A stretch of 21,242 nucleotides of DNA from a virus (IMGVR_UViG_3300044641_005091:1-21242); one strand, 5' to 3'. Shown: positions 1-17,378, counted from the stretch's first letter. Notes: generated by a model from the letters alone, not told the origin. Translations and numbers: made by a program.

Positions 1-855
1 ATAAGCATCCTCTGCACCACGTTTTTCTTTCGGTTCACAAACATAAGTTTCTCTATACCATTGAACTAATTCACCATCAATCACAGAACGACCGGATGCA
101 AGAAAGTTTCCATCACATTCTTGTTTTGCCAAATCTGGTCCGAGAAGAGCATCTTGTTCGTCTCTCCACGATTGATCACGGTCTGGATGGACTTGCCATA
201 ATAATTCTATTGGATTGAATGCACTTTCTTTTAGTGTTGCTTTTACCCATTGTTTATGGTAAAAGTTACCAACACCATTTGGTGTAGAATTGATAATTGC
301 CGTACCACCAGTTGCAAGTGTTTGTTGTGCAGATGCCCATATTTTATCTATGTCATCAATAAAAGCGGCCTCATCTATAATCAGAAGTGAAAGTGCCTCA
401 GAACGAGCAGAGTCAGCGGCAGCAGAAACGGCTTTAATTTGTGAACCATTCCTAAAACGAAGTGACAATTTATTATCTTCTTGAACGCCGGTCTTTAACC
501 AACTTGGAAGATTGTCATACATAACACGAACTTTTGTAACCAAGTTCTTCGCAGTCTCCTGTTTCGTTGCAATAACAAGAATGTTTTTATCTTGATTAAA
601 TAACATCAACCAAAGAGAATAACCAGCAATAAGTGTGGATATACCCAACTGACGAGATTTAAGAACTATATTCCATCGATTATTGTTAAATTCTTTTACA
701 ACATCTTCTTGGAATGGATATAATTCAAATAGTATTTTGCCACGAGTTGGGTGTTGAATCTTTGCATACCTTTTCATAAAATATACAGGATTACTTGCAC
801 ACTTAGCAAATTCCTCTTTGATTATGTCTTTAAGATTTTTATTCGATTGACTCAT
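1..855 (-). CDS. Terminase large subunit, ATPase half (partial, 3' end outside window)
   Basis: This gene encodes the packaging motor ATPase and nuclease that drives DNA into the prohead. The frame is open from the ATG at 855 to the left edge, giving 285 visible residues. The N-terminal ATPase signatures are in order: an adenine-binding Q-motif-like YPFQ (residues 46-49), Walker A SRQLGIST (67-74), Walker B LLIIDEAAF (157-165) with its catalytic Glu, and the coupling motif STPNG (190-194). The visible part ends about where the RNase H-like nuclease domain begins, so that domain cannot be inspected. The layout resembles the gp17-like terminases of T4-type and related phages. The start codon overlaps the stop of the upstream membrane-protein gene (ATGA), which suggests translational coupling. 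No small terminase is seen in the window. Identification is firm. Confidence 0.96.
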   Translation of the reverse strand, partial: MSQSNKNLKDIIKEEFAKCASNPVYFMKRYAKIQHPTRGKILFELYPFQEDVVKEFNNNRWNIVLKSRQLGISTLIAGYSLWLMLFNQDKNILVIATKQETAKNLVTKVRVMYDNLPSWLKTGVQEDNKLSLRFRNGSQIKAVSAAADSARSEALSLLIIDEAAFIDDIDKIWASAQQTLATGGTAIINSTPNGVGNFYHKQWVKATLKESAFNPIELLWQVHPDRDQSWRDEQDALLGPDLAKQECDGNFLASGRSVIDGELVQWYRETYVCEPKEKRGAEDAY

Positions 856-1223
856 TGAACTACCAACACTATTCCTAAGACGGAAGCGGCTCCGGTTAAG
901 AACCACAGAAATTTATTATCATACCAACGTGGTTGTAATTCTTCATTTATCTTTTCAAGTTCTTTGCTTCTTTTTTGACAAGCATCAATAACTTGATCAC
1001 GGTTTCTTAGTTGTTTGAGAAACATATCAGACCGAGATTGATATAAGTCTATTACAGTATCTTGTGCATCAACCACCGTTTTTAAATAATCAACTGAATC
1101 TCTAATTAGTTGAATTTTATTTGCCAGTAAAGTTATTTCCGTTTTATTGAAACAGTAAACTGAATCTTTCTCTGTAGCAACCAAATTTGAGGTCAAAAAT
1201 ATTAAAGCAAAAACATATTTCAT
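852..1223 (-). CDS. Small exported protein, coiled coil and C-terminal TM (spanin-like?)
   Basis: I do not recognise a family. The protein has an N-terminal hydrophobic stretch that reads as a signal peptide (MKYVFALIFL, with a plausible cleavage after LVA). A middle of about 70 residues is charged and rich in heptad-like Leu/Ile/Val, probably coiled coil. A hydrophobic C-terminal segment (FLWFLTGAASVLGIVLVV) ends almost at the last residue. It would span the periplasm with its C-terminus in the inner membrane. Unimolecular spanins have a similar outline, but their N-terminus is a lipoprotein signal and I see no lipobox here. I chose the ATG at 1223 because it starts a clean MK signal peptide. 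A GTG at 1229, overlapping the upstream stop codon, would add two residues. The gene lies between another coiled-coil membrane protein and the terminase, so a lysis role is possible but unproven. Confidence 0.78.
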   Translation of the reverse strand: MKYVFALIFLTSNLVATEKDSVYCFNKTEITLLANKIQLIRDSVDYLKTVVDAQDTVIDLYQSRSDMFLKQLRNRDQVIDACQKRSKELEKINEELQPRWYDNKFLWFLTGAASVLGIVLVVQ

Positions 1224-1566: not shown

Positions 1567-1917
1567 TTAATCCTTTGTATACGTTGAAACCATTTTTGCT
1601 CTACCACGACCGGTAGCACCTTTTTTTCTCTTTCGTGTTACGGCACTTCTTTTTTGTTTTGATGACATTGAAGCGGCTTTGGATGCCGGAACACATTTTG
1701 GATATGCTCTCTTACCACCCTTTCTGGCTTTACTACCAGCAGAAGCGCCACATGGGGGATGACCACCACTTTTTTTCTTACGAGAAATATCTACCCATTT
1801 TTCTCTAAACCAACCGGTTAATCCACCACTGGGTTTTTTGCCTTCAATCAAAACTGAACGAAAGTATTCTCTGATGATTTCTCTAACGATATTTTCTGTG
1901 CATTGATTCATATGCAT
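1567..1917 (-). CDS. Small basic protein with KWVDIS / YPKCVPASKA motifs (virus-associated unknown domain)
   Basis: The 116-residue protein is very rich in Lys and Arg. After an N-terminal helix of about 25 residues it carries GGLTGWFREKWVDIS (residues 31-45), a PPCG motif (54-57), AYPKCVPASKAA (71-82) and a basic tail. This pattern recurs in small proteins of many marine and freshwater phages and some large eukaryotic viruses. I recall a Pfam family named DUF5872 for it, but the name needs checking. Its function is unknown. The basic charge suggests nucleic acid binding or a place inside the capsid, and the two conserved Cys could bind metal. Another small basic gene at 4167-4742 has comparable motifs. 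The ATG two codons further in (1911) is an equally good start. Confidence 0.82.
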   Translation of the reverse strand: MHMNQCTENIVREIIREYFRSVLIEGKKPSGGLTGWFREKWVDISRKKKSGGHPPCGASAGSKARKGGKRAYPKCVPASKAASMSSKQKRSAVTRKRKKGATGRGRAKMVSTYTKD

Positions 1918-1935
1918 AAATATCTGTAATATTTT

Positions 1936-6416: not shown

Positions 6417-6869
6417 TTATATTTCCGGTTCGTCTGGCCAAATTATATTGTAAGGATCAGATTGTAATGTGACATCACGAAGTAATTGACGATACGTTTG
6501 CCACTCTATCTTTTTTTCCGATGTTAATTGTGTATCGACTAATTGTGTCCAATCACATTCTAATAATAATTTGTTTCTTTGGAAACGAATTTGAGACCAT
6601 TTACTGTTTAATTCGATTTCAATTTCTAACTCTGTTTTTATTCTATACGTTTGTATTTCAATAACTTCTTCTTCGGTTATTTGGTGTAAACTTCCATCGG
6701 GAATACCGTTTTCTGGAATAGATGCGGGTTCAAATCTATATGGAAACCAACCATATGATTTTAATGTTTCTTGATCTAGTAAATAAAAATTTGAAATGTT
6801 TTTCCAATTCCTTGGCAACACTCTATTACTTTCTTTTACTACACCGTCTTCTACTAATGCATATTTCAT
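6417..6869 (-). CDS. Tail fibre assembly chaperone-like protein (APC-type C-terminus)
   Basis: The product has about 150 residues. Its C-terminal 70 match the phage tail assembly chaperone type (PF16778-like): WSQIRFQRNKLLLECDWTQ, then a short linker, EWQTYRQLLRD, and a final PYNIIWPDEPE. Proteins with this ending are encoded next to tail fibre genes and help fibres fold, or sit at their tips. The N-terminal half begins KYALVEDGVV, a β-strand opening often seen in these proteins, and contains YGWFPYRFEP. I chose the ATG at 6869 because AGGA lies about 8 bases upstream. A TTG immediately before it (6872) would add one Met. It lies downstream of two glycosyltransferases and the fibre block, consistent with serving those fibres. 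Confidence 0.85.
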   Translation of the reverse strand: MKYALVEDGVVKESNRVLPRNWKNISNFYLLDQETLKSYGWFPYRFEPASIPENGIPDGSLHQITEEEVIEIQTYRIKTELEIEIELNSKWSQIRFQRNKLLLECDWTQLVDTQLTSEKKIEWQTYRQLLRDVTLQSDPYNIIWPDEPEI

Positions 6870-6908
6870 CAAACATTCCTAAATTCATTTACATACAAAT
6901 AAATATCA

Positions 6909-7694
6909 TTACACAACCGAATCCCATAGTTTTTTCCAATCAATATATGGATCAAGTTGTCTTTCATATCCCATATGCAATGCAAGTGATGGTATTGGAG
7001 TGAAAAGAGTCATTTCCCAACGCCAAATGTGATTGATTGTAGTTCCCTCTTGAATTTGATTTGCCTCACCCCATTCGGTCATATATTCTGTTGCACAAGT
7101 GTAAAATCTACTCCAAAATTTACGGACAATTTCTGGATTACACATAAAAGTAAAAGTAGCATATTTGTTTGTTCTCCAATGTCTATTTTTACCAAGAACA
7201 ATTCTTGATTCATCTATAAACTTTGCCATGTAATTATCTGGATCATCGTATGGATGAATTGCAACTTCTGATCCTAAATTTTTCTTAAATGTTGAGTATG
7301 CATCCACCATTTCAACTATTGATGTTGGATAGTGTAGGTAGTCATCTTCAACAAAATAAACCAAATCTGCAGTAGATGAACGACCTCTATCGAATTGAGC
7401 ATGACCAGAGGAGTTCCATCCACGTAATTCTAATGGATTAAATTCATAAGTATGTCTTGATGTTTTGAAAATTTCATGTAATGAATCTATCAGTTTTTGT
7501 GATGAATGATCATCAAACCAAACAAAATGAATTTTTCCGTCATATTGTTCCGCAGACTGAACCAATGATTTTACACATTTGATAACCAATGTTGTTTTAT
7601 CAACACCACAGTATCTTGGAGTTGGATTTGCATGAATATCTATAAAACTATGTGTTCTTAAAACAATATCTAAACTCAATTTATTCGTATTCAT
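6909..7694 (-). CDS. Glycosyltransferase, GT-A fold (GT2-like)
   Basis: The 261-residue protein begins with SLDIVLRTHS, the first strand of a GT-A Rossmann-like fold. It continues with HFVWFDDHSSQ (56-66), the usual nucleotide-sugar-binding strand with an Asp pair, and LVYFVEDDYLHYP (111-123), where E116-D117-D118 fits the metal-binding DxD motif. A later W-rich segment (INHIWRWEMTLFTP) may form the acceptor side. No TM segment is seen, so the enzyme is cytosolic. It would transfer a sugar from a nucleotide-sugar to a phage or host acceptor that I cannot name. The start ATG at 7694 overlaps the stop of the GT9-like gene by one base (TAATG), so the two enzymes are translationally linked and likely act together. 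The family is clear, but the exact CAZy family is not. Confidence 0.85.
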   Translation of the reverse strand: MNTNKLSLDIVLRTHSFIDIHANPTPRYCGVDKTTLVIKCVKSLVQSAEQYDGKIHFVWFDDHSSQKLIDSLHEIFKTSRHTYEFNPLELRGWNSSGHAQFDRGRSSTADLVYFVEDDYLHYPTSIVEMVDAYSTFKKNLGSEVAIHPYDDPDNYMAKFIDESRIVLGKNRHWRTNKYATFTFMCNPEIVRKFWSRFYTCATEYMTEWGEANQIQEGTTINHIWRWEMTLFTPIPSLALHMGYERQLDPYIDWKKLWDSVV

Positions 7695-8701
7695 TATTTA
7701 ACATAACCTTCTGCTAGTTTAGTAAGTTCTTCCCGAATTTTTGTGAATGGTGCATCCCATTCACCATATTTTTCTTGTCTAAATAATTTTACAGAATCAT
7801 ACCAATTAGATGTATCACCAGGAACAACCCATGTGTAATATGGCATGATAGGTGTAACTACCCATGTTGGTTTTCCGATAGCTCCTGATAGGTGAGCAAC
7901 TGATGTACATGATGTTATTATCAAATCACAACCAGCAATTATATTAGCAGTTTCATCCCAACTTTTCATTTGTTCACGCATATCACCAAACGGTAATCCG
8001 TCTACAAGATTTTCATCTCTTTGCAATGAATAAAACGTTGTATTCGGAATATCGTGAAGACCAATCATCAATTCTGGTGGAAATCTTCGGTGTTGTTCGT
8101 CTTCAAATTCTGGAGAACCACTCCAACGGATGCCAACTTTAATATTATTCGGTTTTGAGAATAATTTTCTTGATTCTGTTGGGAAAATAAAAGGAGAACC
8201 ATCCAAATCATCATATTCCATTCCAAGAACATATGGAGCAGACATAGCAGGAACCCAATAATCATAATGTGCACACATAATAACCTCATTATCAACACAA
8301 ATAAATCCATGTCTTGAAAATAAAGGTTTCAATTCGGATGCACATGATACTAAAACTCTAGCACCCATTTCTTGAAATCTTTTAGCAAAACGAAAATTCA
8401 TTATTTGATCACCAAATCCACCTTCACATCTAAAAAGCAATGTTTTATTTTCAAGTGGTTCGTCTTTCCAAATCTTTCCAGAAAGTGCAGGAAGACCAAA
8501 TGTGTTGATAAATCTACCATAATTTAGATGTTCAAACGCTTTCATCATATTACCATGACGCATTTCATGCCATCCCAAATTAAAAAGAACCCTCAAATCA
8601 TCCTGTGGTTGTTCTCGTAAAATTTTTTCACTTATTTCTGGTTTTCCATCTATAGCATACTTCAATGCAATATCTAATGGGTGCATTTCTTTATCATTCA
8701 T
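7694..8701 (-). CDS. Glycosyltransferase, GT-B fold (GT9/GT41-like) with N-terminal TPR-like repeat
   Basis: The 335-residue protein has an N-terminal helical part (residues 1-75) with TPR-like spacing (VLFNLGWHEMRHGNMMKAFEHL). This leads into LLFRCEGGFGDQIMNFRFAKRF (88-109), matching the G-x-GD-x-I opening of heptosyltransferase and OGT-like GT-B domains. The C-terminal domain has VGIRWSGSPEFEDEQHRRFP (189-208), LQRDE, and CDLIITSCTSVAHLSGAIGKPTW (258-280), the nucleotide-sugar pocket typical of GT9/GT41. TPR joined to this fold is the layout of bacterial O-GlcNAc transferase-like proteins that modify Ser/Thr, but LPS heptosyltransferases share the core. A Bacteroidota-type promoter lies 33 bases upstream of the ATG, and AAAAAGGTTTTG precedes it. 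The gene sits just after the fibre block. The fold is well supported; donor and acceptor are unknown. Confidence 0.9.
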   Translation of the reverse strand: MNDKEMHPLDIALKYAIDGKPEISEKILREQPQDDLRVLFNLGWHEMRHGNMMKAFEHLNYGRFINTFGLPALSGKIWKDEPLENKTLLFRCEGGFGDQIMNFRFAKRFQEMGARVLVSCASELKPLFSRHGFICVDNEVIMCAHYDYWVPAMSAPYVLGMEYDDLDGSPFIFPTESRKLFSKPNNIKVGIRWSGSPEFEDEQHRRFPPELMIGLHDIPNTTFYSLQRDENLVDGLPFGDMREQMKSWDETANIIAGCDLIITSCTSVAHLSGAIGKPTWVVTPIMPYYTWVVPGDTSNWYDSVKLFRQEKYGEWDAPFTKIREELTKLAEGYVK

Positions 8702-8733
8702 ATCAAAACCTTTTTATTTTTATATGTAACTAA

Positions 8734-8765
8734 CAAATATACAAAATTTATTCGTAATAAGCAAA
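8734..8765 (-). promoter_or_regulatory. Bacteroidota-type promoter upstream of the glycosyltransferases
   Basis: On the minus strand a TTTG box (8762-8765) is followed by exactly 20 bases and then TATATTTG (8734-8741). This matches the Bacteroidota primary sigma consensus TTTG, N19-21, TAnnTTTG. The site lies in the 65-base AT-rich gap between the RCC1-like gene and the GT-B gene, whose ATG is 33 bases below the -7 box. Transcription would start near 8727 and read the glycosyltransferase and downstream genes. The sequence from the spacer through the -7 box is identical over 18 bases to the second promoter at 13912-13943. Confidence 0.8.
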
Positions 8766-8766
8766 T

Positions 8767-10923
8767 TTAAGTATATCTTTTTATTAAATGAGTTATTACA
8801 CCATAATCAGATGCAGATACCCATGTATTCAATGTTCCAACTTGTGTTGGTGATGATCTGTAAATCGTATCACCAAATCCACCTTGACCAACATTATTCA
8901 TTCCCCAAAACCAAAGCGTTCCATCTGTTTTGGTAAAAGTAACATTTCCACTGTCTGGACTTGTTAAGGTTTTCCAATCGGAATCAGTTCCAACTTGTGA
9001 ATATGTATTTATATTCCATCTCCAAAGTGTTCCGTCTGTTTTTATACCCCAGTTTACAGTGTAATCTCCATATTGCGAAGTTACACTAGCCCAATTTGTT
9101 TCAGTTCCGAGTTGAACGGGTGATGATCGTATACCCCAAACTGATCCATCAGTTCTTTGTAAAACACCACCTGCAAAAATTTTGCTCCAATTTGTATCAT
9201 TTCCAAGTTGAACGGGTGATGATCTATTTATTAAATCAGTAGAACGTCTTCCCATTGCAAGATTATTTGTATCTGTAGCGGTTGTGAAATAACCTGTAGT
9301 GTATACTATTCCAGTATTATCTATAACTCCAGAATGGAATAATCCTATTGATGATGCAGATGCCCATGTATTTAATGTTCCAACTTGTGTTGGTGATGAT
9401 CTATTGGTATAAACACCCAGACCTAAATTACCATAGGTGTTATCACCCCAAGACCAAAGTGTTCCATCAGATCTCAATGCAGATGAAACAATTCTGTTAG
9501 CATCTATCTGTGTCCAATCGGATCTAGTTCCAACTTGAACTGGAGAAGATCTACCAGTTATTACTCCAATTCCAAGTTGTCCAGTAGCGTTTCCACCCCA
9601 AGACCAAAGTGTTCCATTTGATGATATGGCCATCGAATGCGAATACCCAGCAGCAATTTGTGTCCAATCGGATCTAACACCAACTTGAGTTGGTGATGAT
9701 CTATTTCCAGTAAAGGCGGTTGTAATGCCTAATTGTCTAAATGATCCATTACCCCAAGCCCATAGAGTTCCGTCTGATCTAATTGCAATAGTATGTGATG
9801 TTCCAGAAGAAATTTGTGTCCAGTCAGATCTAGTTCCAATCTGAACAGGTGATGATCTGTTTGCAGTGGCCGTTGTTAATAAACCTAATGTTCCATTTGT
9901 ATTAGAACCCCATGACCAAAGTGTTCCATCTGTTTTTATTGCAATAGTAAATGAAGTTCCAGCAGAAACTTTTGACCAATTTGTATCTGGACCAATTTGT
10001 GTTGGAATTGATCTGAATGCGATATCTAACAATCCAAGTTGTCCAACACTATTACTACCCCACCCCCAAAGAGTCCCATCTGTTTTTATTGCAAAATTAT
10101 GAAAATTTGAAGGACCTATTATGCTTTTCCCAGCTATAACTTTCGACCAATTTGTATCAATTCCTACTTGTGTAGGCACAGATCTATTAGTAGTCGTCCC
10201 ATCGCCTATTTCGCGATTTACATTACTACCCCATCCCCAAAGAGTCCCGTCAAAACCAATAGCATACGAAACAGTTTTTCCCATTGAAACCATGGTAAAA
10301 CTTCTATTGATATATGTATAATCTAAATCGGAATCTATTGTGGCAAATGTTGCATTATCCCGTGTTAGTCCAAGCATTTGACCGTCATTATATCCCCAAA
10401 CCCAGAGTGTGCCATCTGTTTTAATAGCAGCGTTAGAAAGATTGTAAAAAATGTTATTTATTTCTGCCCAATTAGTATCAGTTCCGATTTGAACTGGTGA
10501 TGATCGTACTACCGTATCTCCTAATCCGACTTGTCCAAAATCATTTCTACCCCAACTCCAGAGTGTGCCATCTGTTTTAAGTGCAAGTTTACTTGTTACA
10601 GTTTTCCAATTAGTATGTGTTCCGATTTGAACCGGAGAAGAACGGTTTATTGTATCACCAACTCCCATATCTCCACCTTCCGAAAATGAATTCGCACCCC
10701 ATGACCAAAGAGTTCCATCTGTTTTTATTGCAAAAGATGTTTGACCACTTGATATACTACTCCAATTAGTATCAGTTCCAACTTGAACTGGTGATGATCT
10801 ATCTAATCCATCATTAAGTCCGAGTGAATATAGTGAATTTTGACCCATACCCCACAGTTCATTAAGATAAACTGGAGGAACAGGCGGTGTTTTTTGTGCA
10901 GCTACTATTATATCCTTTATCAT
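8767..10923 (-). CDS. RCC1-like repeat protein (β-propeller tail fibre/adhesin)
   Basis: The 718-residue protein consists of about 14 repeats of roughly 45-55 residues. The core reads IKTDGTLWSWG, then xNxxGQLGLGD, then RSSPVQIGTDTNW, with the next repeat starting [ST]xISxG. This is the RCC1 signature, in which each repeat supplies a blade; classical RCC1 proteins have seven. Most repeats are regular. Repeat 4 carries an insertion (DNATFATIDSDLDYTYINR), and repeats 11-13 are degenerate, with one reduced to about 33 residues. A short N-terminal stretch (IVAAQKTPPVPPVY) precedes the first blade. Phages of Bacteroidota and aquatic phages often carry such proteins among tail genes, where they are presumed to bind glycans or proteins at the host surface. 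No catalytic motif is visible. It closes the fibre block; the ATG follows AAAGGTTAATT. Confidence 0.92.
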   Translation of the reverse strand: MIKDIIVAAQKTPPVPPVYLNELWGMGQNSLYSLGLNDGLDRSSPVQVGTDTNWSSISSGQTSFAIKTDGTLWSWGANSFSEGGDMGVGDTINRSSPVQIGTHTNWKTVTSKLALKTDGTLWSWGRNDFGQVGLGDTVVRSSPVQIGTDTNWAEINNIFYNLSNAAIKTDGTLWVWGYNDGQMLGLTRDNATFATIDSDLDYTYINRSFTMVSMGKTVSYAIGFDGTLWGWGSNVNREIGDGTTTNRSVPTQVGIDTNWSKVIAGKSIIGPSNFHNFAIKTDGTLWGWGSNSVGQLGLLDIAFRSIPTQIGPDTNWSKVSAGTSFTIAIKTDGTLWSWGSNTNGTLGLLTTATANRSSPVQIGTRSDWTQISSGTSHTIAIRSDGTLWAWGNGSFRQLGITTAFTGNRSSPTQVGVRSDWTQIAAGYSHSMAISSNGTLWSWGGNATGQLGIGVITGRSSPVQVGTRSDWTQIDANRIVSSALRSDGTLWSWGDNTYGNLGLGVYTNRSSPTQVGTLNTWASASSIGLFHSGVIDNTGIVYTTGYFTTATDTNNLAMGRRSTDLINRSSPVQLGNDTNWSKIFAGGVLQRTDGSVWGIRSSPVQLGTETNWASVTSQYGDYTVNWGIKTDGTLWRWNINTYSQVGTDSDWKTLTSPDSGNVTFTKTDGTLWFWGMNNVGQGGFGDTIYRSSPTQVGTLNTWVSASDYGVITHLIKRYT

Positions 10924-10938
10924 AATTAACCTTTAATT

Positions 10939-12891
10939 TTAATATCCAAGACCACCTACAAATCCATACCAATCGGTTCCACCATTCGGCGTAATAAAAC
11001 TAACAATATTTACAGCAGGACCTTCTAAAAGAGGAGCACCTCCAACTGGCCATTTTACAGATGCAGGCCAAGCAACAGTATATGTTGTACCACTATCAAG
11101 TATTACCGTGAAACTACCGAGATTAGTAGCAGTTGGTGGATTGGTTATGGTTGTACTGGTGATATTAGCACTTTGATTTACATAAAATATATTTCCATTA
11201 GATAAATTATACGTTATACCACCGGCAGAAGAATGATTTATCGTTGTATATTTTTCTTCATAATCTACAAAAACCGGAGTATGTAGGGAACCAGATAGGA
11301 AAACAGATCCAGATACAGTTACATTTTGATTGAGTGTGCTAACACGAGATGCAGTTGCGGCGTATGATGCAGTTGCTGATATGTTAGTTCCAGTCCAACC
11401 ATTGCCACCAACATAAAACCCATTATTTGCATATATTGTACCGGATGTAGTTATTGAGGCACCACCCTGCATCTCAATTCCAACTTGTACATCAAGTGTT
11501 TCATTATCTGGATTTATCGTAATTATGTCAGATCCAGTTATATTGTTAGTGGTTCCATTATAGACCAACATATAATGTGTTCCATTACCGTAATATGATG
11601 TTAAACCGGTTGTTGGACCACTTATGGAAACACCAGATGCAGTTAAAGCATATGATGCACTTCCTTGTAATGAACCAGTAAATGCCGATGAAGTAACAAA
11701 TAATGTTGTTCCTGTTATTGCAAGACCGTTTCCTAATGATAATTCTGCAGCTGTACCTGTCCCTTTACCAATTATACGATTATTATTGTTTATTAAAATG
11801 TTGTTTGTTGTAACTGGACTCCAGGATGGTATACCTGAAATCCATTGAAGAACATGATAATCGGTTAATGCGGTTATTGTTGATATATCACCTGTTCCTG
11901 CAATGTTTCTACCAAGAATACCAGGTGTTATATTTTGCATTTTTGCATAAGTAACCACATCATTATCAATAGTCCAAGTAGATCCACCTGATGAAACGGT
12001 AATATCTCCCTTATCACCATCGGAAACACCACCACCGCCCAATACATACGAAGCAGTTGTTGCGAATGATGAACTAACTGCATTAAGAACATATGATGCG
12101 GTTGTTGCAGTTCCTTGAAGTGAACCGGTGAATGATGTTGCTTGAAGTGAACCAGTTAATCCATAAGAGCCAGATAATTGTTTTGAATGTGTCCATACAC
12201 TTGCACTATACATTAAGAAGTCACCGTAATTGGCACCATTTGTTAATACATTGTGAAGTTCACCCAATTCATAACCATTATTAACTTTTACGAAAATGGA
12301 TCCAACTGTTGCATGAACCCTTTCAACAAAACCAATAATTACTGTATGTTTTGGTGCAACTGGTGGTATTTGTGTGTATTGTCCAGAAGAACTTAAATAA
12401 AGAGTAGCACCTGCAGTCAAACCATTAGTATTTAATCCATTAACAATACCACTTGTAAAAACAAATCCCTCTGCACCAGATGATATGTTTTCCGAAACCA
12501 TACCAAGAGTATTTGCTGATCCCGCTTCAATATCACTATCAGCTCTTTTTACAGAAATTCTGTTGCCCTGTGAACCGGATATGTAAACTATTTCCCCTTT
12601 ATTGAGTGTTGTTGCTTCTGCATTGTAAACTCTAGCAAACGAATCTTGTCCTAATTGTAATGCAAGTGTTCCACCTTTCAATCCCAAATCAAGAGTTCCA
12701 TCACCATCATTCCAAACCAATCTACCGGTTGCAGTAGCAGCAGATGATGTTGTATAAAAATTAAGGTGATCAACATTATTTATGGATCCACTCATGGTAA
12801 GTGAACCCGATATTACACTACCATTGGAAGCAGTTACAGACGATAGATGTGCTCCACTACCACTTACTACAATTTTTTTCCAATTAGACAA
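10939..12891 (-). CDS. Tail fibre protein, WKK-type N-terminus
   Basis: The 650-residue protein begins SNWKKIVVSGSGAHLSSVTAS, which closely matches the start of the fibre encoded at 13927-15201. That points to a common attachment segment. The middle is Ser/Thr/Gly/Ala-rich and contains copies of the SFTGSLQGTATTASYVL and SSFATTASYVL type, common in phage fibres. A DGDKGDITVSSGGSTWTID segment follows. The last 110 residues (FVDYEEKYTTINH to WYGFVGGLGY) look like a compact β-structured tip. It probably forms trimeric β-rich fibres. Translation starts at TTG (12889-12891). The frame upstream of it reaches a stop without an ATG, and a GGAG ribosome binding site sits about 8 bases before it. The promoter nearest upstream is at 13912. 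Confidence 0.87.
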   Translation of the reverse strand: MSNWKKIVVSGSGAHLSSVTASNGSVISGSLTMSGSINNVDHLNFYTTSSAATATGRLVWNDGDGTLDLGLKGGTLALQLGQDSFARVYNAEATTLNKGEIVYISGSQGNRISVKRADSDIEAGSANTLGMVSENISSGAEGFVFTSGIVNGLNTNGLTAGATLYLSSSGQYTQIPPVAPKHTVIIGFVERVHATVGSIFVKVNNGYELGELHNVLTNGANYGDFLMYSASVWTHSKQLSGSYGLTGSLQATSFTGSLQGTATTASYVLNAVSSSFATTASYVLGGGGVSDGDKGDITVSSGGSTWTIDNDVVTYAKMQNITPGILGRNIAGTGDISTITALTDYHVLQWISGIPSWSPVTTNNILINNNNRIIGKGTGTAAELSLGNGLAITGTTLFVTSSAFTGSLQGSASYALTASGVSISGPTTGLTSYYGNGTHYMLVYNGTTNNITGSDIITINPDNETLDVQVGIEMQGGASITTSGTIYANNGFYVGGNGWTGTNISATASYAATASRVSTLNQNVTVSGSVFLSGSLHTPVFVDYEEKYTTINHSSAGGITYNLSNGNIFYVNQSANITSTTITNPPTATNLGSFTVILDSGTTYTVAWPASVKWPVGGAPLLEGPAVNIVSFITPNGGTDWYGFVGGLGY

Positions 12892-12956
12892 AATAGAACT
12901 CCACAGTTTATATCAATACCAATAAATATGTAGTTTTATGATAGTTTGGTAATTAT

Positions 12957-13712
12957 CTAGAATCCAAATTCTGCTTTATCAATATTGTAATTATGCAATA
13001 CTTCCGAAGCAGTTATACTTCTATTGTAACAATAGACTTTTGAAATTTGACCGCTGAACAAATTACCGTCACCAAATGATGCTATATTTACAGAACTATC
13101 CCCATTATGAGGATCTTTGTTTGAAGTGTATGTGCTATCTTGATAACCGTTAATGTATAACGTCATACCATCTGTTGTATTGAATGTTAAAGTAACATTA
13201 TACCAGATGCCGTTTGTAAATGTTCCAGTTGATGGATATGCAGTATAATTTGGCCAGTTTGAATGCCCACAATATATTTTATCCTCACCATTCATATACA
13301 TAAAATGACCACCATTTGCACTACTGATTAAATTATTATCTTGGAAATTGAAGTATCGAAACCAAATGGATTTGGTATACGAAGACGTTGTTAAAACTGC
13401 ACCCGTTCCAATACCTCTGTGGATTAAACCATTAAATGTGAAGGCTCCTGGTATACCAATTGGATATGAATAGAAAGGTGAGTTTACAAGAGTAATGTTT
13501 TGTTGTGTTCCAGCCAAATCATACCAAGTATCACCATCTCCATCATAAGATTCCGTTTTTGAAGCATCTAATCTTAATGTGAGACCATCTGTAACTATAT
13601 CGGGTGATGTAACTAAACCAACACTATTTTTTAATGAAAATGATCCATTTGCACCAGTATTGGAAATCATCAAACCACCATTACCGTTATTATTCAATAT
13701 TTTCAAACTCAT
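12957..13712 (-). CDS. LamG/concanavalin-like domain protein (tail adhesin or decoration)
   Basis: The 251-residue protein has a short N-terminal strand region (LKILNNNGNGGLMISNTGANGSFS) followed by a jelly-roll of LamG/concanavalin type. The opening GLTLRLDASKTESYDGDGDTWYDLAG is the typical first strand and loop (DGL.L.LDA..S......WYDLSG). Later signs are YTKSIWFRYF, GTFTNGIWYNVTLTF, MTLYINGYQDS and the closing FSGQISKVYCYNRSITASEVLHNYN. These domains bind carbohydrates or proteins, and phages use them on fibres and capsids. The ATG overlaps the stop of the small gene upstream (ATGA), so the two are likely co-translated. It is followed by a 65-base gap with no promoter that I can see. Role inferred: host-surface binding. 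Confidence 0.88.
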   Translation of the reverse strand: MSLKILNNNGNGGLMISNTGANGSFSLKNSVGLVTSPDIVTDGLTLRLDASKTESYDGDGDTWYDLAGTQQNITLVNSPFYSYPIGIPGAFTFNGLIHRGIGTGAVLTTSSYTKSIWFRYFNFQDNNLISSANGGHFMYMNGEDKIYCGHSNWPNYTAYPSTGTFTNGIWYNVTLTFNTTDGMTLYINGYQDSTYTSNKDPHNGDSSVNIASFGDGNLFSGQISKVYCYNRSITASEVLHNYNIDKAEFGF

Positions 13713-13885
13713 TTTAGATATAACTGTTGAAGTTTGTAAACAAGGTCATATACAACTTGAACTTCTTTCCCCTTAAATGTGCAATCAGACACCAGTTTCA
13801 ATAAAAATTCCAATTCCTCCTTGGAAAAAGGAGGAATTGGAGGTATCGGATTATTTTCATTATTTTCTTTTTTAACTAAACCCAT
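13709..13885 (-). CDS. Small hypothetical protein with Pro-rich start
   Basis: The product is 58 residues: a short Lys/Asn/Glu-rich beginning, a proline stretch (PIPPIPP, residues 13-19), and a helical C-terminal part (FSKEELEFLLKLVSDCTFKG, then VVYDLVYKLQQLY). I know short phage proteins ending in this SKEELEFLL...VYxLVxKLQ pattern, but no function for them. The frame also has ATGs at 13942 and 13909. However, the promoter at 13912-13943 covers the first, and the second lies about at the expected transcription start. The ATG at 13885, preceded by AATAGGTTTTATC like other starts here, is therefore the best choice. A strong hairpin followed by a U-rich run lies inside the gene. The stop overlaps the LamG gene start. 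Confidence 0.7.
   Translation of the reverse strand: MGLVKKENNENNPIPPIPPFSKEELEFLLKLVSDCTFKGKEVQVVYDLVYKLQQLYLK
13801..13841 (-). terminator. Terminator-like hairpin inside the small gene (possible attenuator)
   Basis: Positions 13809-13822 and 13828-13841 form a perfect 14-bp inverted repeat (arms of the type TCCAATTCCTCCTT) with a 5-base loop. Read on the minus strand, the stem is followed directly by AUUUUUAUU, the layout of an intrinsic terminator. It lies about 65-100 bases after the predicted start of transcription from the promoter at 13912, within the codons for PPIPPF and KEELE. The descending arm contains AAGGAGG, a perfect Shine-Dalgarno core, paired with CCTCC. It may be partial termination, an mRNA structure, or a coincidence of codons. 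Confidence 0.4.
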
Positions 13886-13911
13886 GATAAAACCTATTAT
13901 TTTTCTCATAA

Positions 13912-13943
13912 CAAATATACAAAATTTTAAGAATATATCCAAA
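13912..13943 (-). promoter_or_regulatory. Bacteroidota-type promoter upstream of the small gene and LamG gene
   Basis: On the minus strand TTTG (13940-13943) is followed by 20 bases and TATATTTG (13912-13919), a full match to the Bacteroidota sigma consensus. The -33 box lies within the last codons of the upstream fibre gene. Transcription should start near 13905, about 20 bases before the ATG at 13885. It would read the small gene, the LamG gene, the WKK-type fibre and the RCC1-like gene. The 18 bases covering the lower spacer and the -7 box are identical to the promoter at 8734-8765, and both -33 boxes are preceded by AAA. Confidence 0.78.
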
Positions 13944-15201
13944 TTTCACCGTTATTGGTGTTTACAAAAACCGTACCGTTTCCATTTGCACCACCGTAGA
14001 CTGGATTTGATGATGGGTTTGCAGTTCCTTCTTGTATTACACCCATAAAGGCATCGGGAGAAATTGATGTTGGAGTATTTTGTGTTGGATCCAAATTATT
14101 TTGAAGTGCCCAACGGTCTGCGGAAGCATCAACACCAAGAGCATATCCAGTAGAAGCTGCTTGTTGAACTACAATACCACCATCGGTGTTTGTGTCTGAA
14201 CCAGATGCAAATAATGCCCATTTATCCTCAATCGTTAAAGTTGTTGTATCTAATACAGTTGATATTCCATTTACAACCAAATCACCACTAACAACAAGTT
14301 TATTATTTACAGTTGTTGTTGATGAACCATTACCTATATTAACTGCAGTAGCACCAGTAGTACCAACATTGATTGTTGTTGCGTTTGTTGTAGCAACATT
14401 TAATGTTGTAGCTGATGTTGTAATGTCTCCACCATTAACTGCAATATCGCCAGTAAGTGTCAATCCAACAAATTGAGGACTGTCTCCTGTTTCTAATCCT
14501 AAATCAACATTTTGTGCAACACCATTGGTGGTTAATGTTACATTACCTTGACCATTAGGTGAAAGCGATGAACCACTAACTGTTCCAGCAGGAAGAGCAG
14601 AAACAACGCCAGTTGTAAATGTTGTTGATGATGTATTCAAAGTAATATTTGGTGTACTACCTTCACCGCTAGTTGCACTTGATACAAGAGCACCAGAAGC
14701 AGAAACGCTAGTAACATAATCACCAGTTGTATCAGTTCCAAGAGCAACCGAATTTGCTTGTATAGTTGCAACACCAGTTGATGCATTGATTAAAATATCA
14801 CCACTTACACCAGCATAAGATGATGAATTAAAAAATGTTTGCAATGAACCAGAATTAACAGAAAGACTGTCTGAACCCTCTACTGATATACCACTTCCAG
14901 CAAGGTCTGATAATAATTCACTGTAAGTAGTAAATGTGTTATCCGTTCCGTTATTTGTAAAAAATTTGTGAGCGGATGTTAAATCGGATAAACTAATTGC
15001 AGGAAATGTTGCGGTTGCAGTTACATTTGTTAATCCACTACCATCACCTGTAAATGATCCTGTAAAAGAACCCGTTAATCGAGTTGCAGCTTGTGTTGTT
15101 TGTATTTGTTGATTAGTACCGACTAATACACCAACCGATGCACTCACCGATGTAAGTTCGGCTACACTACCCGATACTATGAGTTTTTTCCACGTTGCCA
15201 T
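13927..15201 (-). CDS. Tail fibre protein, WKK-type N-terminus
   Basis: The 424-residue protein starts MATWKKLIVSGSVAELTSVSAS, nearly the same as the fibre at 10939-12891, so both may attach to the same tail component. The body is Ser/Thr/Gly-rich with β-solenoid-like strands, such as SGSFTGSFTGDGSGLTNVTA and LNVATTNATTINVGTTGATAVNIGNGSSTTTVNNK. The last 100 residues (DKWALFASGSDTNTDGGIVVQ to GEIWIYS) resemble fibre ends in metagenomic phages. No catalytic motif is seen. The ATG at 15201 is preceded by TTTGGAGAATTAA, a clear GGAG ribosome binding site. The 3' end contains the -33 box of the downstream promoter. It probably trimerises and binds a receptor or forms a fibre shaft. Confidence 0.87.
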   Translation of the reverse strand: MATWKKLIVSGSVAELTSVSASVGVLVGTNQQIQTTQAATRLTGSFTGSFTGDGSGLTNVTATATFPAISLSDLTSAHKFFTNNGTDNTFTTYSELLSDLAGSGISVEGSDSLSVNSGSLQTFFNSSSYAGVSGDILINASTGVATIQANSVALGTDTTGDYVTSVSASGALVSSATSGEGSTPNITLNTSSTTFTTGVVSALPAGTVSGSSLSPNGQGNVTLTTNGVAQNVDLGLETGDSPQFVGLTLTGDIAVNGGDITTSATTLNVATTNATTINVGTTGATAVNIGNGSSTTTVNNKLVVSGDLVVNGISTVLDTTTLTIEDKWALFASGSDTNTDGGIVVQQAASTGYALGVDASADRWALQNNLDPTQNTPTSISPDAFMGVIQEGTANPSSNPVYGGANGNGTVFVNTNNGEIWIYS

Positions 15202-15229: not shown

Positions 15230-16987
15230 TCATATAAATAAATATAAGTTACTTCCGGAAATCAACAAACTTCCTGTTGAATCAAGTGCTGGTAATTGAT
15301 TTGTACTTGGTAATACCAGTTTACCGTCTATATTAACACTTCCACTAATATATGCAGATCCAGTGAATACGAGTAAGTCACCAGAAAATGTTACATCACC
15401 ATCAATATTTGTGCTACCACTAACATTCAATGAACCGGTGATTTTCTGATCACCCTTGAACTCATTTGATCCAGTGGTTGCAAAACTACCGGTTGCAATG
15501 GATGCATTAAGAGCATATGATGCAGTTAATGCATAAGATGCAGTTGCAACTGACATTGAACTTGTTTGTGATGATACCAATAATGGAATACCATTCCAAT
15601 TAAACGATGAACCAGTTACAAATAAACTACCAGTAAATTGGTGTCTGTCATCTAAACTATTTCCGAAAAGTGATGAACCAGATATGTTCAGAGTTTCATA
15701 ATTAACTACCGAAGAAGATATTACATAAGTTCTTGCAGTTATTGTTCCACCAACAAGGAGATTGCCGTCAAAATTAGCATTTGTTGCATATAATGTATTA
15801 AATCTTGGTGAATCACTTTCACCCAAACCCAATACACTTCTTTGACCGGAACCGGATATTATATTTGTCCCAAATAAATGTTCAAGTGTTTGTATTGAAC
15901 CAGATACTAAACCAGAGGGTTTATTTAATATATTGTTCCAATAAACGCTACCACTCAATTCACCGCTCGTAACAAATCCTAAATCTTGAATTTGTTGTGA
16001 TGATGAGATAACTCCACCGTCAAAAATACCACTAAAAAGTGGTGCAGTGACAGTTCCTTGTGATGTTAATGAACCACTTAAAAACAATGAACCAGTAAAT
16101 TGGTGTGTATCGTCTATCGTATTACCAAATTCTGTTGATCCAGATGCCTTTATGGTTTGTATATCAACAACTGATGACGATATTACATAAGTTCTAGCAG
16201 TAAGCGTTCCATCTATAAATGCATTACCATCAATTGTCAAATTACTACCGGATATATTTCCGAAAACAACATTATCTGATGTTCCCAATCCGATAGAACT
16301 TCTTTGATTGGAAGAAGATATTATTCCAGTTCCACCTAATATTTGAATTGAACTCGATACAATACCGTTTGGTTTGTTTACAATCTCATCCCAATTACTT
16401 GAAGTGATAAAACCAAAATTTTGAATTTGTTGTGATGATGATATTGTTCCGGCAGCAACAAGATTTGTAAGACCACTACCGTCACCAACGAATTTTCCAT
16501 ATACGGATCCAGTTACATAAACAGATCCTGTAAATTGATGTGTGTCTAACATATCGTTTCCGAATATGTTTGAACCACTACTAAAAGATTGAGTTACATT
16601 TATTACGGATGAAGATATTATTAACTGTCTAGCGGTTAAATCACCGGTTAGAGTAAGGTTGTTAAATGTTGGCGAGTCTGTGGCTGCAAGTCCTAACACA
16701 CTTCTTTGTGTAGAACTTGATACTATATTTGTTCCCGAAAGATGTGAAAGTGTTTGAATGGATGACGATACAGTTCCAGCTGGCATAGATGCAGCTGAAA
16801 GATTCGTTATTTGTGATCCATCTCCTTTCAAATAGAATGCATCTACTGTTCCAGATACAGCCAATAACGTAACAAGAGATCCAGTTCCGTCAAGAAGTGT
16901 TGAATCATCAACAGGATCAGTTTGAAGTAATCTATAATAAGACTCAGAAACAAATAGATTGGTCAGGTCTCTTTGTGTACTTGGCAA
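15230..16987 (-). CDS. Tail fibre protein with three internal repeats
   Basis: The 585-residue protein begins PSTQRDLTNLFVSESYYRLLQ, a likely attachment segment unlike the WKK type. It then contains three copies of a unit of about 145-154 residues. Landmarks are LTAR or ITAR at 119, 264 and 418, SSSVV, FGN, and DDxHQFTGS at about 150, 295 and 449. Between copies lie IVNKPNGIVSSSIQ and ILNKPSGLVSGSIQ segments and Q[RQ]SxxGLGxSD motifs. The C-terminal 120 residues carry ATASYALTASYAL repeats and a series of short GSxxIxG strands, suggesting a β-helical shaft. Translation starts at TTG (16985-16987); the preceding in-frame codon is a stop, so no earlier start is possible, and GAGAGA lies upstream. 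The 31-base gap to the upstream gene holds no recognisable signal. Confidence 0.87.
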   Translation of the reverse strand: MPSTQRDLTNLFVSESYYRLLQTDPVDDSTLLDGTGSLVTLLAVSGTVDAFYLKGDGSQITNLSAASMPAGTVSSSIQTLSHLSGTNIVSSSTQRSVLGLAATDSPTFNNLTLTGDLTARQLIISSSVINVTQSFSSGSNIFGNDMLDTHQFTGSVYVTGSVYGKFVGDGSGLTNLVAAGTISSSQQIQNFGFITSSNWDEIVNKPNGIVSSSIQILGGTGIISSSNQRSSIGLGTSDNVVFGNISGSNLTIDGNAFIDGTLTARTYVISSSVVDIQTIKASGSTEFGNTIDDTHQFTGSLFLSGSLTSQGTVTAPLFSGIFDGGVISSSQQIQDLGFVTSGELSGSVYWNNILNKPSGLVSGSIQTLEHLFGTNIISGSGQRSVLGLGESDSPRFNTLYATNANFDGNLLVGGTITARTYVISSSVVNYETLNISGSSLFGNSLDDRHQFTGSLFVTGSSFNWNGIPLLVSSQTSSMSVATASYALTASYALNASIATGSFATTGSNEFKGDQKITGSLNVSGSTNIDGDVTFSGDLLVFTGSAYISGSVNIDGKLVLPSTNQLPALDSTGSLLISGSNLYLFI

Positions 16988-17018
16988 TTATTCTCTCTCG
17001 TTAGTTCCAATATAAATA

Positions 17019-17378
17019 TCAATTATTTGAATCTAACAACTTTTTTTCTAAAATTTCTATTCTTTCTAAAAGATGTTGTATCAATAGTGTATGATACGGT
17101 GTTATTTGGTCATTATTAACTACAAGTTGTGTATCTTTTGGAGAAATGAATCCGTCATCATCTATCGTTTCTTCCAATCCTGGTTTAGGAACAGCACCAA
17201 CTAAATGTTCAAATCCAGTTTTTATCAGTTGTTGGGCAGAATATCCAGTTTTAATTCCCTTATCCAATTCATCTTTCCAAGTAAATTGAATCGCATTAAC
17301 CCCTTTAACGAATCTAATTGCATCCGCCAATTTTATATTACCCAATATATTTTTAAGTCTTTCATCGGATGTTGCATT
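17019..17378 (-). other. Peptidase S74-like chaperone domain, predicted cleavage before Ser398
   Basis: This segment encodes residues 394-513 of the spike. The catalytic Ser-Asp pair of SDERLK is intact, so self-cleavage is expected between T397 and S398. Cleavage would leave a mature fibre of about 397 residues and release a fragment of about 116 residues. The coiled coil at the C-terminal end fits the trimerising helix of this family. Confidence 0.8.

Follow-up and report, generated by a model that had tools for sequence, protein, structure and literature searches.

Gene context of the two sites

The window, by which we mean the whole 21,242-bp stretch that was analyzed, is, as judged from its sequence, a fragment of a T4-like myovirus. 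Its contig end cuts a minus-strand gene for a T4-type terminase large subunit (1..906; phrog_5989, 5e-45; PF03237) that is 65% identical to that of Microcystis phage Mel-JY01 and 58% identical to that of Flavobacterium phage immuto, the nearest isolates, and IMG/VR holds many contigs closely related to the window. A protein with a phosphodiester glycosidase (NAGPA) domain is encoded at 1936-2805 in the late region. All gene starts were set mechanically on the basis of open reading frames (ORFs), with a possible error of a few codons.

Two promoter-like sites lie on the minus strand of this fragment. Downstream of site 1 is a two-gene block, consisting of the minus-strand gene 7694..8701 and a second gene at 6909-7694, which the original prediction had read as glycosyltransferase genes. 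The first of these has 59 related loci in viral contigs but matched no Pfam or PHROG profile, and we refer to the block as glycosyltransferase-like. Site 1 separates it from an RCC1-repeat fiber-like gene (8767-10923). Downstream of site 2 is a small minus-strand gene (13709..13885; MGLVKKENNENN...), followed by a LamG gene (12957-13712). An ATG preceding the start of the small gene is out of frame in one relative (L241) due to a length change, and MGLVKK is therefore taken as the conserved start. The RCC1-repeat and LamG-domain proteins are possible host-binding parts of the fiber block.

Two exact copies of a -33/-7 arrangement

In the whole record, TTTG-N20-TATATTTG occurs on the minus strand exactly twice, at 8734-8765 (site 1) and 13912-13943 (site 2), confirming the original prediction of TTTG, exactly 20 bases, and a -7 box at both places. 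The AAA noted in front of the -33 box is likewise present in both sites (AAATTTG), and the run of identical bases, given as 18, even comprises 19 (AAATTTTGTATATTTGTTA; 8731..8749 on the minus strand at site 1). At site 1, the -33 box TTTG (8762..8765, minus strand), identified by pattern search and by its conservation in relatives, is paired with the -7 box TATATTTG (8734..8741, minus strand). As transcription starts in F. johnsoniae are located 4-5 nt from the -7 box (PMC6847099), the start at site 1 is predicted at approximately 8728-8729. At site 2, the -33 box TTTG (13940..13943, minus strand) falls within the last codons of the fiber gene 13927-15201 (GAA ATT TGG ATA TAT TCT TAA, E-I-W-I-Y-S-stop), and the -7 box TATATTTG is found at 13912..13919 on the minus strand. 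The distance from the -7 box to the start codon, previously stated as 27-33 bases, is 32 nt at site 1 (ATG at 8701) and 26 nt at site 2 (ATG near 13886). That the sites divide the fiber block from the glycosyltransferase-like block is true for site 1, which lies at this boundary, but not for site 2, which lies inside the fiber block with the LamG gene and two further fiber genes downstream.

With dinucleotide shuffles, 0.015 copies of the exact arrangement were expected per window versus the two observed, keeping in mind that this exact form was picked after it had been seen. The loose consensus TTTG-N19..21-TAnnTTTG was expected 0.77 times per shuffled window, with P(≥2) = 0.19, and chance is therefore excluded mainly by the exact form together with conservation in relatives. 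A scan for E. coli-type sigma-70 promoters was uninformative (54 matches vs 59.6 expected).

Conservation of the sites in relatives

For site 1, 59 loci were read, and 24 distinct upstream regions were drawn from clades that have the arrangement of the window. In 22 of these 24, an exact TTTG is positioned 19-20 nt before TATATT, while spacer and flanks vary; of the other two regions, one (L196) reads CTTG, and the other no longer has the arrangement. In the most distant relatives (~52-64% identical), the gene follows directly after a fiber gene, and this upstream region is absent. For site 2, 17 relatives were sampled, of which 13 had all 12 of 12 box letters, spaced by 19-20 nt, and the site was also intact where the -33 box is non-coding (for example, L220, L229, L233, and L236). 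The -7 box was lost in the other four relatives although the coding TTTGG was retained. This conservation of both sites at fixed spacing argues strongly, on comparative grounds, that they are -33/-7 promoters under selection. The expectation that more copies would be found in front of genes elsewhere was also borne out, as nine related phage records yielded 55 matches, compared with 4 for reversed-pattern controls. The spacer in a matrix built from 47 sites was 20 (33 sites) or 19 (14 sites), with the search pattern itself confining it to 18-21, and two thirds of the sites had a G immediately in front of TATATTTG.

In several diverged homologues, the -7 box varies at its end (TATATTAG, TATATTGT, and TATATTGG), in some at the final two bases, while AAATTTTG is retained, which is unexpected under a strict host consensus and counts against a host-type reading. 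At L201 (~1340-1395), the site 1 homologue reads TTTTG-N19-TATATTTAT, in which the host-type class and the second promoter class described below overlap, one base away from the host-type -7 box. In other AT-rich viral contigs (L005, L040, L041, L051, L061, L066, L068, L071, and L074), the 18-mer, preceded by TTG at a distance of exactly 20 nt, stands immediately before a conserved ORF of ~300 aa.

Relation to the host promoter consensus

The original prediction regarded the common sequence as phage-specific. This view does not hold, as at least 42 chromosomes of Bacteroidota contain the same 18-mer. Of the Bacteroidota matches among the 80 loci listed, 27 were intergenic and 26 stood within 250 bp ahead of an ORF start; the corresponding numbers for the 38 matches in other phyla were 13 and 6. 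The published F. johnsoniae promoter consensus, TTTG/TAHHTTTG with an AT-rich motif at about -18, covers most of this 18-mer (PMC6847099).

The two sites agree with what is expected of promoters of the housekeeping sigma factor sigma-ABfr: TATATTTG conforms to the -7 sequence TAnnTTTG (TAHHTTTG) at both sites; a -33 TTTG, expected at 19-21 nt, stands at N20 in both and at N19/20 in homologues; the same sequence precedes genes in host chromosomes; the stretch around -18 is AT-rich; and the resulting leaders of ~21-28 nt are plausible. Phage sites differ in being near-perfect at both boxes, including the -33 box, which is barely visible in F. johnsoniae (PMC6847099), and in having a G just before TATATTTG. 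The suggestion that a phage factor reads these sites likewise found no support, since the boxes agree with the host consensus and no enrichment was seen for the -7 half by itself: ATATTTGT without a -33 box occurred 11 times in sense versus 7 times in antisense orientation. With these same numbers, the possibility that the two sites are variants of the late-type box described below was rejected.

TTTG-N20-TATATTTG pairs were counted 22 times in 0.89 Mb of phage DNA versus 33 times in 21.4 Mb of six host genomes, where the reversed control gave 12, and are thus ~16 times denser in the phages. In view of this density, which is a point in favor of the original prediction, a feature adapted to the phages (the G before TATATT, AAATTTT) may play a role in addition to the host consensus. 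In terms of sequence, the phages use a near-perfect version of a host signal.

Genes preceded by the host-type class

The assignment of the sites to a late class was not supported by relatives, whose sites mostly precede early-type genes, whereas a different element that lacks a -33 box, [AC]TATTTAT, is found at the late genes; the early and late labels rest here on gene identity and size. In Mel-JY01, the host-type class, which can also be written TTG-N19/20-TATATTTA/G, is found as TTGCATA...cGTATATTTG before small early-type genes and before a glycosyltransferase block at 83441. The equivalent class of immuto (TTG...TATATTTAGG) precedes early-type genes, and in four long relatives of the window (G001-G004), where early-type genes are preceded by it as well, its sites are concentrated in front of short ORFs, frequently as TTTGATCTT...TTATATTTG. 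The two sites of the window are without the TTTGATCTT extension seen at many of these sites. Mel-JY01 (PP395634.1; L155-L158), for which the cyanobacterium Microcystis elabens is recorded as host, carries Bacteroidota-type promoters, and its terminase resembles those of the window clade and of a Flavobacterium phage; this host assignment may deserve a check.

A separate late-type box, [AC]TATTTAT

Counts of words upstream of genes yielded [AC]TATTTAT, which is nearly always in sense orientation, with sense:antisense ratios of 21:1 in Mel-JY01 and 16:1 in immuto, where CTATTTAT upstream was found at 13:3. The ratios in G001, G002, G003, and G004 were 30:2, 27:1, 21:1, and 22:0, respectively, although these four have homologous genes and their counts are not mutually independent. 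The antisense strand served as the control, as the reversed uncomplemented pattern was unusable because ATATTTATA contains TATTTATA, the reverse. The box is located at a median of 32 nt before the gene start, and a matrix of 122 sites showed no information upstream of position -1 and no -33 box. It is strict, as among all single changes only CTATTTAT was clearly enriched.

In immuto, [AC]TATTTAT precedes the terminase, PhoH, virion protein, sheath, tube, hub, fiber, and spike genes. Seven of 19 such sites, but none of 15 sites of the -33 class, stand directly before named structural genes (P = 0.011). In Mel-JY01, the box precedes genes of the portal-to-tail region, including the portal-position gene and the tail tube gene. 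The window itself contains five late-type boxes ATATTTAT, all on the minus strand. For four of them, the distance to the gene start is 24-36 nt, and three of those four precede fiber genes, namely 12922..12929 (CATATTTAT; gene 10939-12891), which recurs with its flank before an ORF in G006 at 25229, 15238..15245 (gene 13927-15201), and 17012..17019 (GATATTTAT; gene 15230-16987). The fourth (6899..6906; GATATTTAT) precedes gene 6417-6872. The fifth (1916..1923) is at the start of gene 1567-1917, and its counterparts are 4 nt before ORFs of similar size in G003 (118477) and G006 (9607).

T4 late promoters consist of one box without a -35 element (PMC2988020). As a positive control, T4 gave sense:antisense ratios of 23:7 for TATAAATA and 4:13 for ATATTTAT, from which we conclude that the strand call is sound and that the new box nearly corresponds to the reverse complement of the one in T4. 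TATAAATA itself was rare in sense orientation in G002-G004 (0:13, 0:15, and 1:15), so that [AC]TATTTAT departs from the T4 consensus. It resembles the T4 late promoter (TATAAATA, gp55/gp33/gp45) in its single box without a -35 or -33 element, its structural genes, and its strict consensus, but on the coding strand it reads as a near reverse complement of TATAAATA. The late promoter NATAAATA of cyanophage S-PM2 is also a T4-type late box, from a phage of a distant host phylum (PMC2984593), but has the opposite polarity. The two host-type sites do not match the T4 late type: their -33 TTTG is conserved, and their class mostly precedes early-type rather than structural genes. Neither kind of motif was found in the part of Rhodothermus phage RM378 that was searched. 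The literature searched contained no report of a Flavobacterium phage late promoter or of TATTTAT late boxes; such an absence is no proof of novelty, but the eight-base box is apparently undescribed so far, and by its sequence it is probably a new variant of the T4-type late promoter.

A candidate reader of the late-type box

A search with the gp55 profile gave no match in G001-G004 or Mel-JY01, and in immuto a weak match of gp118 (phrog_234, E 0.008). This protein of 232 aa is ~40% conserved in Mel-JY01, G001, G002, and G006, and the family occurs in more than 500 viral contigs; the gene of immuto is located at 28174-28872 (L160), and further members were found at L368 6644-7312, L372 2282-2941, L394 11382-12041, and L158 8803-9477. 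Sigma70_r2 was touched by 6 of 16 family members (best E 0.019), and a comparison of the gp118 and gp55 profiles was collinear but weak (P 0.034, probability 1.5%). In a Foldseek search with the AlphaFold2 model of gp118 (pLDDT 80, pTM 0.48), several of the best matches were sigma factors; the first match had a probability of 0.96 and E 0.08, and none had E < 0.001. A search of PDB sequences with the gp118 alignment gave nothing of note. The neighborhoods of 80 gp118 relatives, used to test the late box out of sample, gave a mixed picture, with sense:antisense ratios of 40:9 for CTATTTAT and 23:32 for ATATTTAT; because of this, and because they represent one homologous locus, we counted this result neither way. 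From these profile and model comparisons, gp118 is a candidate reader of the late box, as a lead and not as a demonstration.

Discussion

The original observation was correct and its reading partly wrong, as the sequence comparisons point to two host-type promoters inside the late region. We consider it highly likely that they are sigma-ABfr host-type promoters of a T4-like Bacteroidota phage whose late genes use the separate box [AC]TATTTAT. Points against this reading are the higher density of full pairs in the phages, the variable end of the -7 box in diverged homologues, the overlap of the site 2 -33 box with coding sequence, and the missing TTTGATCTT extension.

Several other explanations have to be weighed against this. 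Accidental matching of two AT-rich strings, by chance or as a by-product of coding, would be compatible with the frequency of the loose consensus in shuffled windows and with the coding -33 box of site 2, but the boxes and their exact spacing are kept in diverged relatives, even where that -33 box is non-coding, and we regard this explanation as extremely improbable. The original idea of a phage-specific late promoter type that is read with a phage factor agrees with the position of both sites within the late (structural) region, with their 19 identical bases, and with the AAATTTTG extension kept in several diverged homologues. Nevertheless, it is very unlikely, given that it is [AC]TATTTAT that stands before the family's late genes, that sites of the TTTG/TATATTTG class are concentrated ahead of small early-type genes, that host chromosomes also contain the 18-mer, and that the -7 box is unenriched when the -33 box is missing.

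Mixed promoters, in which host-type -33 and -7 boxes are combined with an ATATTTG box that the late factor would recognize as well, if weakly, would allow early plus late expression. ATATTTGT is indeed only one base from ATATTTAT, the L201 homologue belongs to both classes at once, and an overlap of early with late promoters has been proposed in the case of RB49 and of cyanophages (PMC2984593). Against this stands the strictness of the late box, of whose single changes CTATTTAT but not ATATTTGT is clearly enriched, and we therefore judge mixed promoters to be very unlikely as well.

With sigma-ABfr host-type promoters at both sites, the host RNA polymerase in its unmodified form would bind the -33 TTTG together with the -7 TATATTTG and would start transcription ~4-5 nt downstream of the -7 box. 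Such recognition by the host polymerase implies that the glycosyltransferase-like block and the small gene of the fiber block could be transcribed before the late switch. The late genes would be driven by [AC]TATTTAT without a -33 box, presumably via a phage factor.

For T4-like Bacteroidota phages in general, we think it probable that there are two promoter classes: a near-perfect sigma-ABfr class for early and selected late-region genes, and the late box [AC]TATTTAT without a -33 element, a near reverse complement of the T4 box for which a diverged gp55-like sigma factor of the immuto gp118 family is a possible reader. The host-type sites indicate which promoter class stands behind glycosyltransferase-like genes in the late region and predict early or constitutive expression of these genes. 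A clear late-promoter motif would permit the labeling of early and late genes in many uncultured Bacteroidota phages, and it raises the question of how the late box known from T4 and the sigma factor that reads it have changed in a lineage whose hosts have an unusual housekeeping sigma factor.
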